Virus record (IMG/VR): IMGVR_UViG_3300047333_000133
Span: 1 to 39,375 of that record
DNA length: 39,375 bases
Strand: one strand, 5' to 3'
Source of the DNA: a virus
Both the position numbers and the translations under genes were made by a program. Under the pieces are notes generated by a model, which saw nothing but the letters and a program-made list of their open reading frames with translations, made no database searches and was not told the origin of the DNA. Numbering within the stretch: position 1 is the first letter of the stretch; every line of letters starts with the position of its first letter. Of the stretch, positions 24,629 to 30,947 are shown in pieces.

Positions 24629-25212
24629 CCATGCTCATGTTGGATTCAGGTACGTCATTCATACCTGTTATCCAAACCTACAGTTCGGCCGGAACATTTA
24701 CACCGACTGTACCCTCGGGGGCTACTAACGCTGAGTTCGAGGTATGGGGTGCTACGGGCGGCTCTCAGGCTGGTACTGGATCGGGATGTGGTGCCGTATC
24801 CGGCCAAGGTTCTGCCTCGGGTGGGTATAGTAAATCACTTGCCAATGTTGCCCTCCAAAATGGGGTGGTCATCACTATATCTATTGCAGCAGGAGGTTCA
24901 GGAGGAGCCGCGCCTGGGGGTGTCGGAACAGCGGCCAGCGGTAATACAACTCTTGCCGCTAGCTTTCTTACTACCATGTCCTCCACGCCAGGGGCACCAG
25001 GCACCGGAGTAGGAACCGCGTTAGGGGGAACTGCTACTGGTGGATCTTCAGCAAACACAAGTGGTCAAAGTGTACCTTATGGTCAATCTAGTGGTGGCGC
25101 AGGTGTAGTAGGGGATAATGGAACTGGTCCTTCTGGTGTCGGTGGTGGAATTGATGGAACCAATGCAGGACGCACTGGAAAACCTGGAAAAGTGATCATT
25201 AGATACACATGA
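24625..25212 (+). CDS. Glycine-rich adhesin, tail-fibre tip candidate
   Basis: A 195-aa protein translationally coupled (ATGA) to the tail fibre gene. After a short beta start (YSSAGTFTPTVPSGATNAEF) it consists of Gly/Ser/Ala/Thr-rich loops (GGSQAGTGSGCGAVSGQGSA, GAAPGGVGTAASG, GGAGVVGDNG) and ends GKPGKVIIRYT. This is the signature of glycine-rich domain proteins, as in adhesins attached to fibre tips, where polyglycine helices form the receptor-binding tip. It most likely determines host range. Confidence 0.65.
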   Translation: MTMLMLDSGTSFIPVIQTYSSAGTFTPTVPSGATNAEFEVWGATGGSQAGTGSGCGAVSGQGSASGGYSKSLANVALQNGVVITISIAAGGSGGAAPGGVGTAASGNTTLAASFLTTMSSTPGAPGTGVGTALGGTATGGSSANTSGQSVPYGQSSGGAGVVGDNGTGPSGVGGGIDGTNAGRTGKPGKVIIRYT

Positions 25213-25559
25213 TCAACTATAAGCACGATGTTCGTGAAGGTAGATTTGGTTGCTGGTACCATTTCGATAACATTGGTGATGCGATACCTAGTCATTCTCA
25301 CGAAAACACTGACTTACACCATACTGTGAAAGTTATTCAGGGATCAGTTAGAGTACAGTTCGATACCGAAGCTGTTATTCTTCACAAAGGTGATGATGTA
25401 TTTTGGTTCGACAACTTTCGCCCTCACTCCATAGTGGCTGTGCTCCCGCGCACGGTTATTTTTAATGAATATATACAGGGAAAACCTGTCAGCTATAATG
25501 CGCTGGCTCCTACCTGTTTGGAGGGAACTATAGGTGTCTTACGATCCGAGAATAAATAA
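25209..25559 (+). CDS. Cupin-fold protein
   Basis: A 116-aa single-domain cupin. Motif 1 is recognisable: PSHSHENTDLHHTVKVIQGS has His29, His31, His37/His38 and Gly45. Motif 2 is GDDVFWFDNFRPHSIVAV with His73, so the metal-binding His set seems largely present. Cupins bind a metal or small molecule and include sugar isomerases, dioxygenases and sensors; the substrate here cannot be inferred. It lies between the receptor-binding adhesin and the lysis genes and is coupled by ATGA to the former. It could modify a host-surface or fibre compound, or be a structural cupin. Confidence 0.7.
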   Translation: MINYKHDVREGRFGCWYHFDNIGDAIPSHSHENTDLHHTVKVIQGSVRVQFDTEAVILHKGDDVFWFDNFRPHSIVAVLPRTVIFNEYIQGKPVSYNALAPTCLEGTIGVLRSENK

Positions 25560-27554: not shown

Positions 27555-28043
27555 CTAGCTTCGGGTACCTTCTTGGTTAGTGTATCTTGAATCAGCTTGT
27601 TCTGCCGATGTTTCGCTAATATTATTTGCCGCCTCTTCCAAGCTGCATCCCTCCGATTCCGCCAGCTTTTGAAGGAAGTGGTAAGCTTTCTTAAGATCTT
27701 TAAACCCATCCTTTTTTCTCCATCTGGTTAAGTACCTGATAATTTGTGCTTCAAGGTAAGGAATGTTATTAGCCAGAACATAGTCCCAATGCTGTATGTG
27801 TGCCTGGTAATGCATTCCTCCAACTTGTCTACTATTTGCTGCGCTAGCTTGCACTGTTTCCGCAGCCTTTACCAGCGTGATACTATCCTTTATATCTTTA
27901 GAAATCTCCGGGGCGCACTTGCAGGCAGGTAAGTCCAGTTTTCCTCCACGCTTCAACCACACGGTTTCTGTCTTCGAATACGGCCCATATTCTACTGAAG
28001 ATTCCGAGAGAATGTGCCCATGACACTTTAAGCAAGTGGTCAT
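27555..28043 (-). CDS. DUF3310 protein with N-terminal zinc-ribbon-like segment
   Basis: A 162-aa protein. Residues 73-130 (RQVGGMHYQAHIQHWDYVLA, IIRYLTRWRKKDGFKDLKKA) match DUF3310, common in phages and sometimes labelled nucleotide kinase without good support. Residues 1-45 carry CLKCHGH and CKC (Cys4, Cys7, Cys41, Cys43), a possible zinc site. The ATG at 28043 is chosen because it gives the zinc segment; the frame stays open upstream to 28175. That start lies 146 bp inside the HAD phosphatase gene in another frame. It is the last gene of the minus-strand operon. Confidence 0.65.
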   Translation of the reverse strand: MTTCLKCHGHILSESSVEYGPYSKTETVWLKRGGKLDLPACKCAPEISKDIKDSITLVKAAETVQASAANSRQVGGMHYQAHIQHWDYVLANNIPYLEAQIIRYLTRWRKKDGFKDLKKAYHFLQKLAESEGCSLEEAANNISETSAEQADSRYTNQEGTRS

Positions 28044-28359
28044 CTGTACGGGAATTAGCTCTCCGCATCTCAAGGTGGTGGTACACAACTCCGTATTTGA
28101 ACAACCATTCTTCAGTTTTACTTCTCGTCGTTTCCGAACGCCCCGTGAAAATGTAGATTTTCTTTTGGTTCCCATTTAAAATCCTCATTAGCTGTATGAC
28201 AACGTGATTTGGTTCGTCTAAATGACAGAGATCGAAATATTCGTCCCAACGTCGTGGTTTCTCCTTAAGTAAATGGTTCCTATGATCATCTAAAGCTAGT
28301 GTTCCATCGAGATCGCAAATTACAATATCGCGTATTTGCGAAGTAACCAATTCCGACAT
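27898..28359 (-). CDS. HAD-family phosphatase, polynucleotide 3'-phosphatase-like
   Basis: A 153-aa protein. CDLDGTLALDDHR gives the HAD nucleophile and acid (Asp16, Asp18). IYIFTGRSE supplies motif II (Thr72). VFEDRNRVVEAWRKTGL supplies the distal acidic motif (Asp130). The layout and small size match the phosphatase domain of T4 polynucleotide kinase and similar phage proteins, which remove phosphates from DNA or nucleotide ends. ATG at 28359 is chosen for GGAG 6 bases upstream rather than the TTG at 28371. It overlaps the end of the ThyA-like gene by 40 bp. The role may be end repair, or nucleotide dephosphorylation for the modified-base pathway. Confidence 0.75.
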   Translation of the reverse strand: MSELVTSQIRDIVICDLDGTLALDDHRNHLLKEKPRRWDEYFDLCHLDEPNHVVIQLMRILNGNQKKIYIFTGRSETTRSKTEEWLFKYGVVYHHLEMRRANSRTDDHLLKVSWAHSLGIFSRIWAVFEDRNRVVEAWRKTGLTCLQVRPGDF

Positions 28360-29300
28360 GCGTATCTCCAATCTATGTTTGCTATATCATTGCAAATATC
28401 TAATGCATATTCTACCTCACCCCTTGAAATCCATGCGCGGTGTACTTGAAGTACAGTTTCCCGCATGAAGGGGGTGAGGTAGCAACAGTCTACTGGGGAA
28501 TGAGATTTACAAAACCATTCACAATCTAATTGAAAATTAGCATAAGATTCATCCTTTTGTGTGAAAATTGGTATGGGATCTATTTTACAATCCCTATACA
28601 TGTCCTGGACTTTTACCAGCCGAATGTTAGGTTCGAAATCTTCTCTTTCCGTATACATGTGAAGATTATTACTGAATACCCTATACTTCCCCAAAGGTAT
28701 ATCAGCGAAGTGGGCAATAGTTTCATGAAGCATAGTCATATGAACTATATTGGCTCCGAGCGCCCCCCATATTAGATCATTACTGCGATTTATCACTGTC
28801 ATATTCAGCGCGCCCTGCACTACGCGGAACATAATCGCGATATTACAGGCTTTGTCTTTGTAAGCACCCAAAAGGTCATTTTGTACGTCCCACATCTGTA
28901 TTACGGCTTGTCTCGTCCCTTTATTTGACTTCAGCTTTTGGATAACTTGATGTATTTGATCAACCTTAAACAACTTCGTCCAGCGGTAGCCATAGGCAGC
29001 ATAGATTACCCCATCGTCGGCAAAGGACTCCATGTTTTTGTTGAATTGTGATATCCACTTAGAATCATTTCGACCAGCTACCATCCATATGAACTCCATA
29101 AGGTGGAAGAATGGATTAGCTTTCCGTACTGCATCATCGATAATTCTACACATGGGATTATGTAGTGTCATTACCGCTGGTTCAAGTAAAGTTAGAACTT
29201 GGCCGTTGCGGCTGGATTCTTTAACTCCGCTGACACGCATGTGCTGTAATGCTTCCTCATAAAGATGCGAAGCTGTGTAACCTTCTATTTCATTTATCAC
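28320..29300 (-). CDS. Thymidylate synthase family enzyme (possible dUMP hydroxymethylase)
   Basis: A 326-aa ThyA-fold protein. ACNIAIMFRV has the nucleophile Cys152. NRSNDLIWGALGAN gives the phosphate and base contacts (Arg172, Ser173, Asp175, Asn184). NNLHMY gives His214 and Tyr216. LMEFIWMVAGRND and YAAYGYRW match the remaining active-site segments (Glu69). Usual ThyA has PCH and PFN; here these are ACN and GAN, a deviation also expected of hydroxymethylases. It makes either dTMP or 5-hydroxymethyl-dUMP from dUMP with methylenetetrahydrofolate. GTG at 29300 has AAAGGAG 8 bases upstream, and this fixes the start. Context beside base-modifying genes favours the hydroxymethylase. Confidence 0.8.
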   Translation of the reverse strand: MINEIEGYTASHLYEEALQHMRVSGVKESSRNGQVLTLLEPAVMTLHNPMCRIIDDAVRKANPFFHLMEFIWMVAGRNDSKWISQFNKNMESFADDGVIYAAYGYRWTKLFKVDQIHQVIQKLKSNKGTRQAVIQMWDVQNDLLGAYKDKACNIAIMFRVVQGALNMTVINRSNDLIWGALGANIVHMTMLHETIAHFADIPLGKYRVFSNNLHMYTEREDFEPNIRLVKVQDMYRDCKIDPIPIFTQKDESYANFQLDCEWFCKSHSPVDCCYLTPFMRETVLQVHRAWISRGEVEYALDICNDIANIDWRYACRNWLLRKYAIL

Positions 29301-30162
29301 CTGGATAGCTCCTTTTTGATCGCCCAGTACCTGTTGAAACCCGCATGTACTTATCAAATTCGCACAAGCAATTTTGAAGGTCTTGCATGTCGTATTCGAC
29401 AGTGTTACCCAATTGTCCAAGTAGCGTGTGTACCATTTCTATATTTGCTTGGTAAGCTTTTTTCACTGGATTGTTAGGACTACCGCTAAATATCCAAGAT
29501 AATCCCCGCAAAGAACCAGGGCCAGAGCAAGACCAGCTTTTACGATCAGCGGCGTCGTATAGAGCATGCCCTGGAGTGTTTTTAAGATCTGCAATGTTCT
29601 GCCCTGCCATAAATGAGGATATACCGTAAACGCCCATATACCGTGTATACGCGGCTGCGCACGTAGGGGCTACGCCAGCATTGGCCCAAACCAAGCCCGG
29701 TCCTACGCCTTCGTACAGCGCCGGGAGCAGCGCTTGCGCCACATAGTAAGCCTTGGCTACGGGCCTACCGTTGGTGGAAACGATATAAGCATCCCCGAAG
29801 GTTCTCTTACCAGTAGTCTGGCGCGTGATAAGCGCATCGCCAACAGCCGCAAATGCTTCTCGGCTCCCAATATAGCCAATTTCTGCGAGTGTTCCAGGTT
29901 CATTGATGATTCTAGCAAAGCCAATGTTGACCTCAAACATCGGATCGTTAACGTGAGGCGAGTACATTCTTCGGATAAATTTAGTGACACGATCATTTTC
30001 CCTGTTTACGTTGCAGAAATAGGTGGTTTGGAATACTGGATCATTACTCCAAGGTTTCGGCGCCCCGGTCTCTTTCTGCACCCGTATCGCTTCCCTTTCC
30101 TGCATCCAATAGTGCAGCTTCTCGACCATATCTAAGGGCTTTGACCCATTGGATTCTGACAT
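29290..30162 (-). CDS. Alpha-glutamyl/putrescinyl-thymine pyrophosphorylase-like (5-hmdU kinase helical-domain) protein
   Basis: A 290-aa protein. REAIRVQKETGAPKPWSNDP, followed by FCNVNRENDRVTKFIRRMY (residues 23-67), is the hallmark opening of the helical domain shared by phage alpha-glutamyl/putrescinyl-thymine pyrophosphorylases and 5-hmdU DNA kinases. Downstream helical motifs (YVAQALLPALYE, YTRYMGVYGISSFMAGQNIA) and a GPGSLRGLSWIF turn agree with a DNA-glycosylase-like helical fold. In phages with hypermodified thymine this family acts on pyrophosphorylated hydroxymethyluracil in DNA. No P-loop kinase domain is present. The ATG at 30162 has AAGGAG 7 bases upstream. It overlaps the glycosyltransferase end by 119 bp and the ThyA start by 11 bp. 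Confidence 0.75.
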   Translation of the reverse strand: MSESNGSKPLDMVEKLHYWMQEREAIRVQKETGAPKPWSNDPVFQTTYFCNVNRENDRVTKFIRRMYSPHVNDPMFEVNIGFARIINEPGTLAEIGYIGSREAFAAVGDALITRQTTGKRTFGDAYIVSTNGRPVAKAYYVAQALLPALYEGVGPGLVWANAGVAPTCAAAYTRYMGVYGISSFMAGQNIADLKNTPGHALYDAADRKSWSCSGPGSLRGLSWIFSGSPNNPVKKAYQANIEMVHTLLGQLGNTVEYDMQDLQNCLCEFDKYMRVSTGTGRSKRSYPGDK

Positions 30163-30880
30163 CGACTCTCTCCTTACCCTGCCATGATGTTTTTGTTTGC
30201 TTGACAACCGCTTTAACGAACTGGGGGTATTTCGCTTCCAGTTGGTAAGCCGCCGCAGCCTGCATTTCCAATGTCCTCCATCCGGTGCAGCCTCCGGGTT
30301 GGTTGTTGGAACCTCCTTGGTTGTGGGTCATGTTGTTGTAGATACAGTTTTCATAGCCTCGTGTGAGTAAAGCCAGGGCTACATGGAAATCTTCCATAAG
30401 CTGGAACTCTTCAAAGCGAATATTGTACTGGCGCAATATCCGGGTATTGTATCCCAAAACCCGCATCGGTCGTCCAGGGGAGATTATTGGATCTACGTTG
30501 TAGCTAGCTCCTTCACGTGGTGACATTGCGATATGGGCAATGCCTTCATCATCTAAGCTAATCTTCGCCCACTGTAAAAACCTGAGTATTTCAGTTTCAG
30601 TAGATTTTTGAAGCAGCTTTAAGTTTTCTTCTCGTCGGGTAGCAAACTCTAAATCATCGTCCAACATTAGCACTGACTCAGGGTAGGCCCAGTCTATTAT
30701 GAAATCCCGTGTTGCCGCTATGGTTTTGATGTTTTCGGGCAGTGTAACTTGATGTTGATGGTCTAAAACTGCCGGGTCACCCTGCTGTTTGAAGAATATT
30801 ACCTGTTCCTGTATTTTCTCCGGCAGGTTTGAATAAGTTTTCTGATATACCCGCCCGTAAGTCGGAATCACTATTTTCAT
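30044..30880 (-). CDS. DNA-base glycosyltransferase-like protein (TET-associated type, GT-A fold)
   Basis: A 278-aa protein. MKIVIPTYGR opens a GT-A nucleotide-sugar fold. LMLDDDLEFATRRE holds the DXD metal site (Asp74-Asp76). FQLMEDFHVALALLTRGY gives a likely acidic catalytic region (Glu163-Asp164). THNQGGSNNQPGGCTGWRT and KYPQFVKAVVKQTKTSW, ending VRIQWVKAL, match the glycosyltransferases that accompany base-modifying genes in phages. It should transfer a sugar to hydroxymethylated bases in DNA. AAGGAG lies 7 bases before ATG. The last 40 residues are in the 119-bp overlap with the next gene. Confidence 0.7.
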   Translation of the reverse strand: MKIVIPTYGRVYQKTYSNLPEKIQEQVIFFKQQGDPAVLDHQHQVTLPENIKTIAATRDFIIDWAYPESVLMLDDDLEFATRREENLKLLQKSTETEILRFLQWAKISLDDEGIAHIAMSPREGASYNVDPIISPGRPMRVLGYNTRILRQYNIRFEEFQLMEDFHVALALLTRGYENCIYNNMTHNQGGSNNQPGGCTGWRTLEMQAAAAYQLEAKYPQFVKAVVKQTKTSWQGKERVDVRIQWVKALRYGREAALLDAGKGSDTGAERDRGAETLE

Positions 30881-30893
30881 TGACCTACTCCTT

Positions 30894-30922
30894 AAAAAGG
30901 AACGGCCCCATTTGGGGCCGTT
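30894..30922 (-). terminator. Rho-independent terminator between the Lys-rich gene and the modification genes
   Basis: On the minus strand AACGGCCCC, loop AAAT, GGGGCCGTT is followed by CC and five T. The T-run adjoins the AAGGAG that serves the glycosyltransferase start. It would reduce read-through, so the 30948-31331 protein should be made in larger amounts than the modification enzymes. Confidence 0.85.
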
Positions 30923-30947
30923 CTATTCACTAAAGCCTAATATTCAT

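Follow-up and report, generated by a model that had tools for sequence, protein, structure and literature searches.

The 39,375-base record of an uncultivated phage, IMGVR_UViG_3300047333_000133 of IMG/VR (hereafter the window, meaning this whole stretch), carries on its minus strand three overlapping genes encoding a TAGT-family GT-A glycosyltransferase, an HMUDK_hel protein and a ThyA-superfamily enzyme. This cassette is a real, conserved variant of the thymine-hypermodification systems, in which a glycosyltransferase replaces the P-loop 5-hydroxymethyldeoxyuridine (hmdU) kinase. We propose, with a probability of roughly 60%, that it makes glycosylated hmdU in phage DNA, HMUDK_hel acting as a shared hmdU-DNA subunit with an exchangeable catalytic partner. 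The TAGT gene (30044..30880) comes first and overlaps by 119 nt the HMUDK_hel gene (29290..30162, ATG start at 30162; 'aGPT-PPlase clade 1'), which itself overlaps by 11 nt the gene of the ThyA homologue (28320..29300), whose GTG start at 29300 is preceded by the ribosome-binding site AAGGAG. This three-gene arrangement had been described in an earlier note on this DNA and is confirmed. The three family assignments made there also hold, with profile scores all above the Pfam cut-offs: PF20691 for TAGT (1.7e-14, 54.7 bits vs 27.5; PHROG 842, 5e-35), PF18723 for HMUDK_hel (9.8e-30, 104.3 bits vs 25) and PF00303, Thymidylat_synt, for the ThyA homologue (2.9e-21, 76.2 bits vs 24.3; PHROG 5131 'thymidylate synthase', 5.7e-92).

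The main evidence comes from a survey of the partners of HMUDK_hel. Loci were collected by alignment-based scans of IMG/VR and with our own iterated profiles, and the 317 HMUDK_hel matches listed were grouped at 90% identity into 212 clusters. Only the best matches, ranked by similarity to the queries, are listed, so that the proportions given here are not population frequencies; the robust result is the exclusion. TAGT was found in 108 of the listed clusters, a P-loop kinase in 54, and both together in none (Fisher p 1e-21). The counts were 73, 50 and 0 for the clusters obtained from HMUDK_hel queries alone (p 1e-15). In whole-record searches, with positive controls detected, the kinase family PF18748 and the amino acid:DNA transferase family (ADDT, PF18724, 'aGPT-PPlase2') were absent from TAGT records, and PF20691 from kinase records. 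Among the listed clusters, ADDT occurs solely alongside the kinase (33 of 54 kinase clusters), while HMUDK_hel is found in 51 of the 53 TAGT-query loci having flanks. The association of a glycosyltransferase with the HMUDK_hel family, first regarded as unusual, is thus not an odd combination; it is the commonest arrangement among the listed clusters.

TAGT and the kinase also tend to occupy the same place. The kinase gene directly precedes HMUDK_hel in 48 of its 54 clusters, and TAGT lies within 300 nt of HMUDK_hel in 86 of 108, 65 times in the same upstream slot and 21 times just downstream. The switch between the two partners evolved repeatedly. Their labels change 17 times over a FastTree tree of 209 HMUDK_hel rows, and 12 times over an IQ-TREE tree of 85 rows, where at least five changes are forced by supported branches, compared with ~28 for shuffled labels. 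In phylogenetically independent pairs, TAGT and kinase are always opposite (0 same, about 7 opposite; median p 0.016). The HMUDK_hel core itself does not follow the partner: 24 alignment positions reach 90% identity or more in the TAGT as well as in the kinase class, and two are class-specific, both weakly so. In Bacillus phage SBSphiC, an unannotated 652-residue protein (L324:1954-3909) carries both the kinase (PF18748) and HMUDK_hel (PF18723) domains; natural TAGT-HMUDK_hel fusions were looked for and none was found. Exclusion, slot sharing, repeated swaps, invariant core and SBSphiC fusion together suggest a constant role for HMUDK_hel beside an exchangeable catalyst.

HMUDK_hel is predicted to be the subunit recognizing hmdU in DNA and the partner of TAGT. 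The window protein belongs to the kinase-tied 'clade 1', and not to the amine-transferring clade 2. Its model is all-helical, with a predicted local distance difference test (pLDDT) score of 92.8, and a helix-hairpin-helix-like segment, GISSFMAGQNIADL, starts at residue 180. DNA-3-methyladenine glycosylase, OGG1, AlkA and the PaMx11 glycinyltransferase PUGT head the list of structural matches, all of them non-significant (E 0.25 or worse), and a sequence-profile search of solved structures returned no relatives of TAGT or HMUDK_hel. The modelled structure hints at a base-flipping DNA-binding fold. HMUDK_hel could instead be an enzyme of the PUGT/ADDT fold, acting before or after its partner, for example by adding a further group to hmdU, with TAGT and the kinase as alternative activating enzymes. 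This is rather unlikely, although PaMx11 gp46/PUGT is among the best, non-significant, structural matches, the family bears the name 'thymine pyrophosphorylase clade 1', and no ADDT lies in the flank sampled for 21 of the 54 listed kinase clusters. The TAGT and kinase classes have the same conserved residues, and the fusion of kinase and HMUDK_hel suggests a shared step. Moreover, a glycosyl group, unlike a (pyro)phosphate, is no leaving group, so that a single HMUDK_hel chemistry could hardly serve both partners.

Several observations nevertheless weigh against a recognition subunit with exchangeable partners. The strongest comes from the complete phage MW202897 (L003:19998-22296), in which TAGT adjoins ThyA and HMUDK_hel is found nowhere, so that TAGT may act alone. 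No significant structural match was obtained for HMUDK_hel, and since PUGT, one of its top weak matches, is an enzyme, HMUDK_hel could be catalytic. Neither TAGT, kinase nor a recognized glycosyltransferase was detected in 35 of the 212 listed clusters; some sampled 'kinases' match PF18748 weakly, and one P-loop partner belongs to another Pfam family. Finally, we found neither biochemical nor nucleoside data on any phage with TAGT and HMUDK_hel.

The glycosyltransferase of the window is predicted from its sequence to glycosylate hmdU in DNA. Its AlphaFold model (pLDDT 92.7) best matches GT-A/GT2 structures of the PDB (TarP, TarS; E 7e-6), and in an alignment of 71 members, the DDD motif is invariant and Asp164 nearly so; rows from annotated phage records were left out of this structure work. 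A single-sequence scan of viral contigs retrieved no relatives, and alignment queries were required. TAGT was originally recognized in T2/T6 as a beta-glucosyl-HMC-alpha-glucosyltransferase, HMC being hydroxymethylcytosine (hmC), and many solitary TAGTs have no known role (PMC13216743). The T2/T6-type enzymes (PF20691) share the GT-A family and the DDD motif with the window protein. However, in T-even phages, TAGT places a second glucose on hmC that is already glucosylated, whereas the window TAGT adjoins a dUMP-type (deoxyuridine monophosphate) ThyA and HMUDK_hel. At another locus (L159:3318-5060), a 581-residue TAGT is fused to a radical SAM-SPASM domain and directly follows HMUDK_hel, which suggests further sugar tailoring there.

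The catalytic Cys of the ThyA homologue is residue 152 when the GTG at 29300 is taken as start, in keeping with the numbering of the earlier note. As also noticed there, ACN and GAN replace the PCH and PFN motifs, as seen when the protein is aligned with E. coli ThyA, T4 gp42 and M6-type enzymes. The trait is clade-wide: with few exceptions, the loci sampled show (P/A)CN and G(A/S/T/I)N, with TAGT or kinase partner alike, so that these motifs are not peculiar to the window protein. The nearest phage relatives are mostly M6/YuA/PaMx11-type enzymes, plus that of the TAGT phage MW202897. Asn177 of E. coli ThyA selects dUMP, and T4 dCMP hydroxymethylase has Asp179 instead. Since an Asn is kept at this specificity position in every partner class of the sampled loci, uracil, and not cytosine, is the likely substrate. 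The protein is predicted to be a dUMP 5-hydroxymethylase, its clade pointing to hydroxymethylation over methylation.

Two other assignments of the ThyA homologue have been weighed. It could be a dCMP hydroxymethylase, with TAGT then acting on hmC as it does in T-even phages; among solved structures, the best relative of the protein is indeed a CMP 5-hydroxymethylase, and TAGT was discovered as acting on HMC (PMC13216743). This cytosine target appears improbable. A dCMP hydroxymethylase identity is disfavoured by the Asn that GAN keeps at the dUMP position and that T4 gp42 lacks, the gp42 row of the alignment being probably shifted by one residue there; the predominance of M6/PaMx11-type enzymes among the nearest phage relatives also argues against it, as does the specificity of 5-HMUDK, which phosphorylates hydroxymethyluracil (hmU), not hmC, in DNA (PMC6457204). 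It is very improbable that the protein is a plain thymidylate synthase, or that the cassette is inactive in DNA modification. Hydroxymethyluridylate and thymidylate synthases are admittedly hard to separate by sequence (PMC5977210), from which the hydroxymethylase activity is predicted, but ThyA is linked to TAGT and HMUDK_hel, being present in 106 of the 108 listed TAGT clusters, and all members of the clade have an Asn where PCH has its His.

Part of the genome lies beyond the window. A relative, G001, is colinear with it, and their comparison indicates that the window lacks about 5 kb; this relative is probably complete, since its first bases recur towards its end as a terminal redundancy of about 254 bases. 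Neither PF18748 nor PF18724 was found in the window or in G001, in searches that detected the phage positive controls. The absence of a 5-hmdU kinase from the window, as previously noted, thus stands, while the suggestion that one may lie outside it is not borne out, with G001 devoid of kinase and no co-occurrence of kinase and TAGT in the 212 listed clusters. The same data bear on an amine hypermodification of M6/ViI type, which would imply that the kinase and the amino acid:DNA transferase are too diverged or lie outside the window. ThyA and HMUDK_hel are certainly also present in M6-type phages, and about 5 kb is missing from the window, but this explanation is highly improbable, being strongly disfavoured by the lack of both families in the colinear, probably complete G001, as well as by the kinase/TAGT exclusion. 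The pathway cassette put forward in the earlier note survives as a conserved ThyA/helical protein/glycosyltransferase unit, without its pyrophosphorylase-type chemistry.

The two genes reported to follow the cassette are indeed there, on the same strand. The first (27898..28359) encodes an HAD_PNKP-type phosphatase (PF25109, 9e-26), and the second a DUF3310 domain of the T7 gp1.7-like nucleotide kinase type (27555..27900 with a provisional start, within an open frame spanning 28175-27555). The latter scores just below the Pfam cut-off (PF11753, 4.4e-5, 23.9 vs 24) but is real, with PHROG 5839 at 2.4e-21; T7 gp1.7 'nucleotide kinase' itself matches PF11753 at 4.5e-23. Among the 212 listed clusters, HAD is found in 13, an HD nucleotidase in 95, and both in none (p 3e-4). 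The HAD enzyme is predicted to be a nucleotide-pool phosphatase, in the slot occupied by the HD 5'-nucleotidase of relatives.

A route to glycosylated hmdU may be drawn from these parts. The ThyA-like enzyme would convert dUMP into 5-hydroxymethyl-dUMP, as its clade and active-site residues suggest. The DUF3310 kinase and host kinases would bring hmdUMP to the triphosphate, while the HAD phosphatase (the HD nucleotidase in relatives) would trim competing nucleotides. The PolA-type polymerase of the phage would put hmdU in place of T. HMUDK_hel would then recognize or flip out hmdU in duplex DNA and present it to TAGT, which would add a sugar taken from a host nucleotide-sugar. HMUDK_hel would be neither a kinase nor a pyrophosphorylase here, its partner being a P-loop kinase in M6/YuA-type phages, TAGT in the window and other glycosyltransferases elsewhere. 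Since the partner enzyme here is TAGT, glycosyl-hmdU, which resembles base J, is expected in place of the thymines.

The closest known systems are the M6/YuA-type cassettes (M6, SN1, Pam3, Sonora). Like the window, they have HMUDK_hel and a homologous ThyA-like hydroxymethylase, arranged in the same order; a nucleotidase and DUF3310 come next, with PolA nearby. They differ by having a P-loop 5-hmdU kinase where the window has TAGT, and the window cassette is without ADDT (aGPT-PPlase2), radical SAM/PLP (pyridoxal phosphate) partners and Nmad5. In the cultured Brevibacterium phage LuckyBarnes, gp38-gp41 (L007:3562-7577) comprise ThyA, two TAGTs and HMUDK_hel side by side, with no PF18748 kinase; however, the gene order differs, ThyA has a long C-terminal extension and HMUDK_hel is annotated as hypothetical. 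The same three families lie in one genomic region near the DNA polymerase in pelagiphages, for which a broadened function was suggested; the parts of this account that we consulted list the co-location, but mention neither that kinase and TAGT exclude each other nor that partners are swapped (PMC9599517). We found no earlier description of the exchange of partners; its novelty is provisional, as the primary hypermodification papers and a 2013 computational survey lie outside the literature covered. The predicted product is, like base J of kinetoplastids (glucosyl-hydroxymethyluracil), a glycosylated hmU. Base J is made by oxidation of T within DNA (JBP, a TET/JBP dioxygenase), whereas the hmU of the window would be made as a nucleotide by the ThyA-type enzyme; a Tet_JBP (PF12851) search of 12 records gave no match, and none in the control genomes either.

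Other genes were seen around HMUDK_hel. GT4-like or other putative glycosyltransferases occur in 15 of the 212 listed clusters; GT4-like ones lie near HMUDK_hel without TAGT or kinase in 12 of those listed (e.g. L031, L210, L219, L265, L308), and in L265 a radical SAM-SPASM gene stands between the two. A sulfotransferase-like gene (Sulfotransfer_3, below cut-off) adjoins HMUDK_hel in L062 (8798-10547), where TAGT and kinase are absent; a member of an unfamiliar protein family also adjoins it there, and relatives of this protein precede HMUDK_hel in L070 and L082. Directly upstream of HMUDK_hel, L264 (5114-5977), a locus without TAGT and kinase, has a methyltransferase-domain gene, and similar loci have similar-sized genes in the same place. 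In large bacterial contigs of Hyphomicrobium and Hyphomicrobiaceae (L336, L338, L353), HMUDK_hel stands beside a ThyA homologue, with flanks devoid of TAGT, kinase and ADDT.

As for the rest of the window, genes for terminase, portal, tail, PolA-type polymerase and SNF2-type helicase are present, and a nucleotide search of the cassette region against phage records gave no match. A terminator-like hairpin on the minus strand (30900..30923; 10-pair stem with 8 G-C, CTTTTT tail) lies between the upstream gene and TAGT, directly before the latter; it suggests a new or attenuated unit beginning with the cassette, the number of such sites in the whole scan being not above that in shuffled sequences. 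A small protein of cupin-like look (25209-25559) is kept in G001 at 45% identity.

If the proposed mechanism is true, the role of the helical domain linked to the kinase would be explained, since it would present hmdU to an enzyme and not perform catalysis. Phages would also have a route to base J-like DNA that dispenses with TET/JBP oxidation, and modified, restriction-resistant DNA would be predicted in many uncultured phages. Enzymatic DNA modification would also gain a handle from an adaptor whose catalytic partners are exchangeable. The claim is directly testable in LuckyBarnes, a sequenced isolate holding the same parts. More tentatively, and at somewhat less than even odds, HMUDK_hel may be a general reader of hmdU in DNA, re-equipped with a kinase, TAGT, GT4-like or other glycosyltransferases, and possibly with radical-SAM or sulfotransferase tailoring, in which case environmental phages would hold a large unexplored set of base J-like, sugar-modified thymines.

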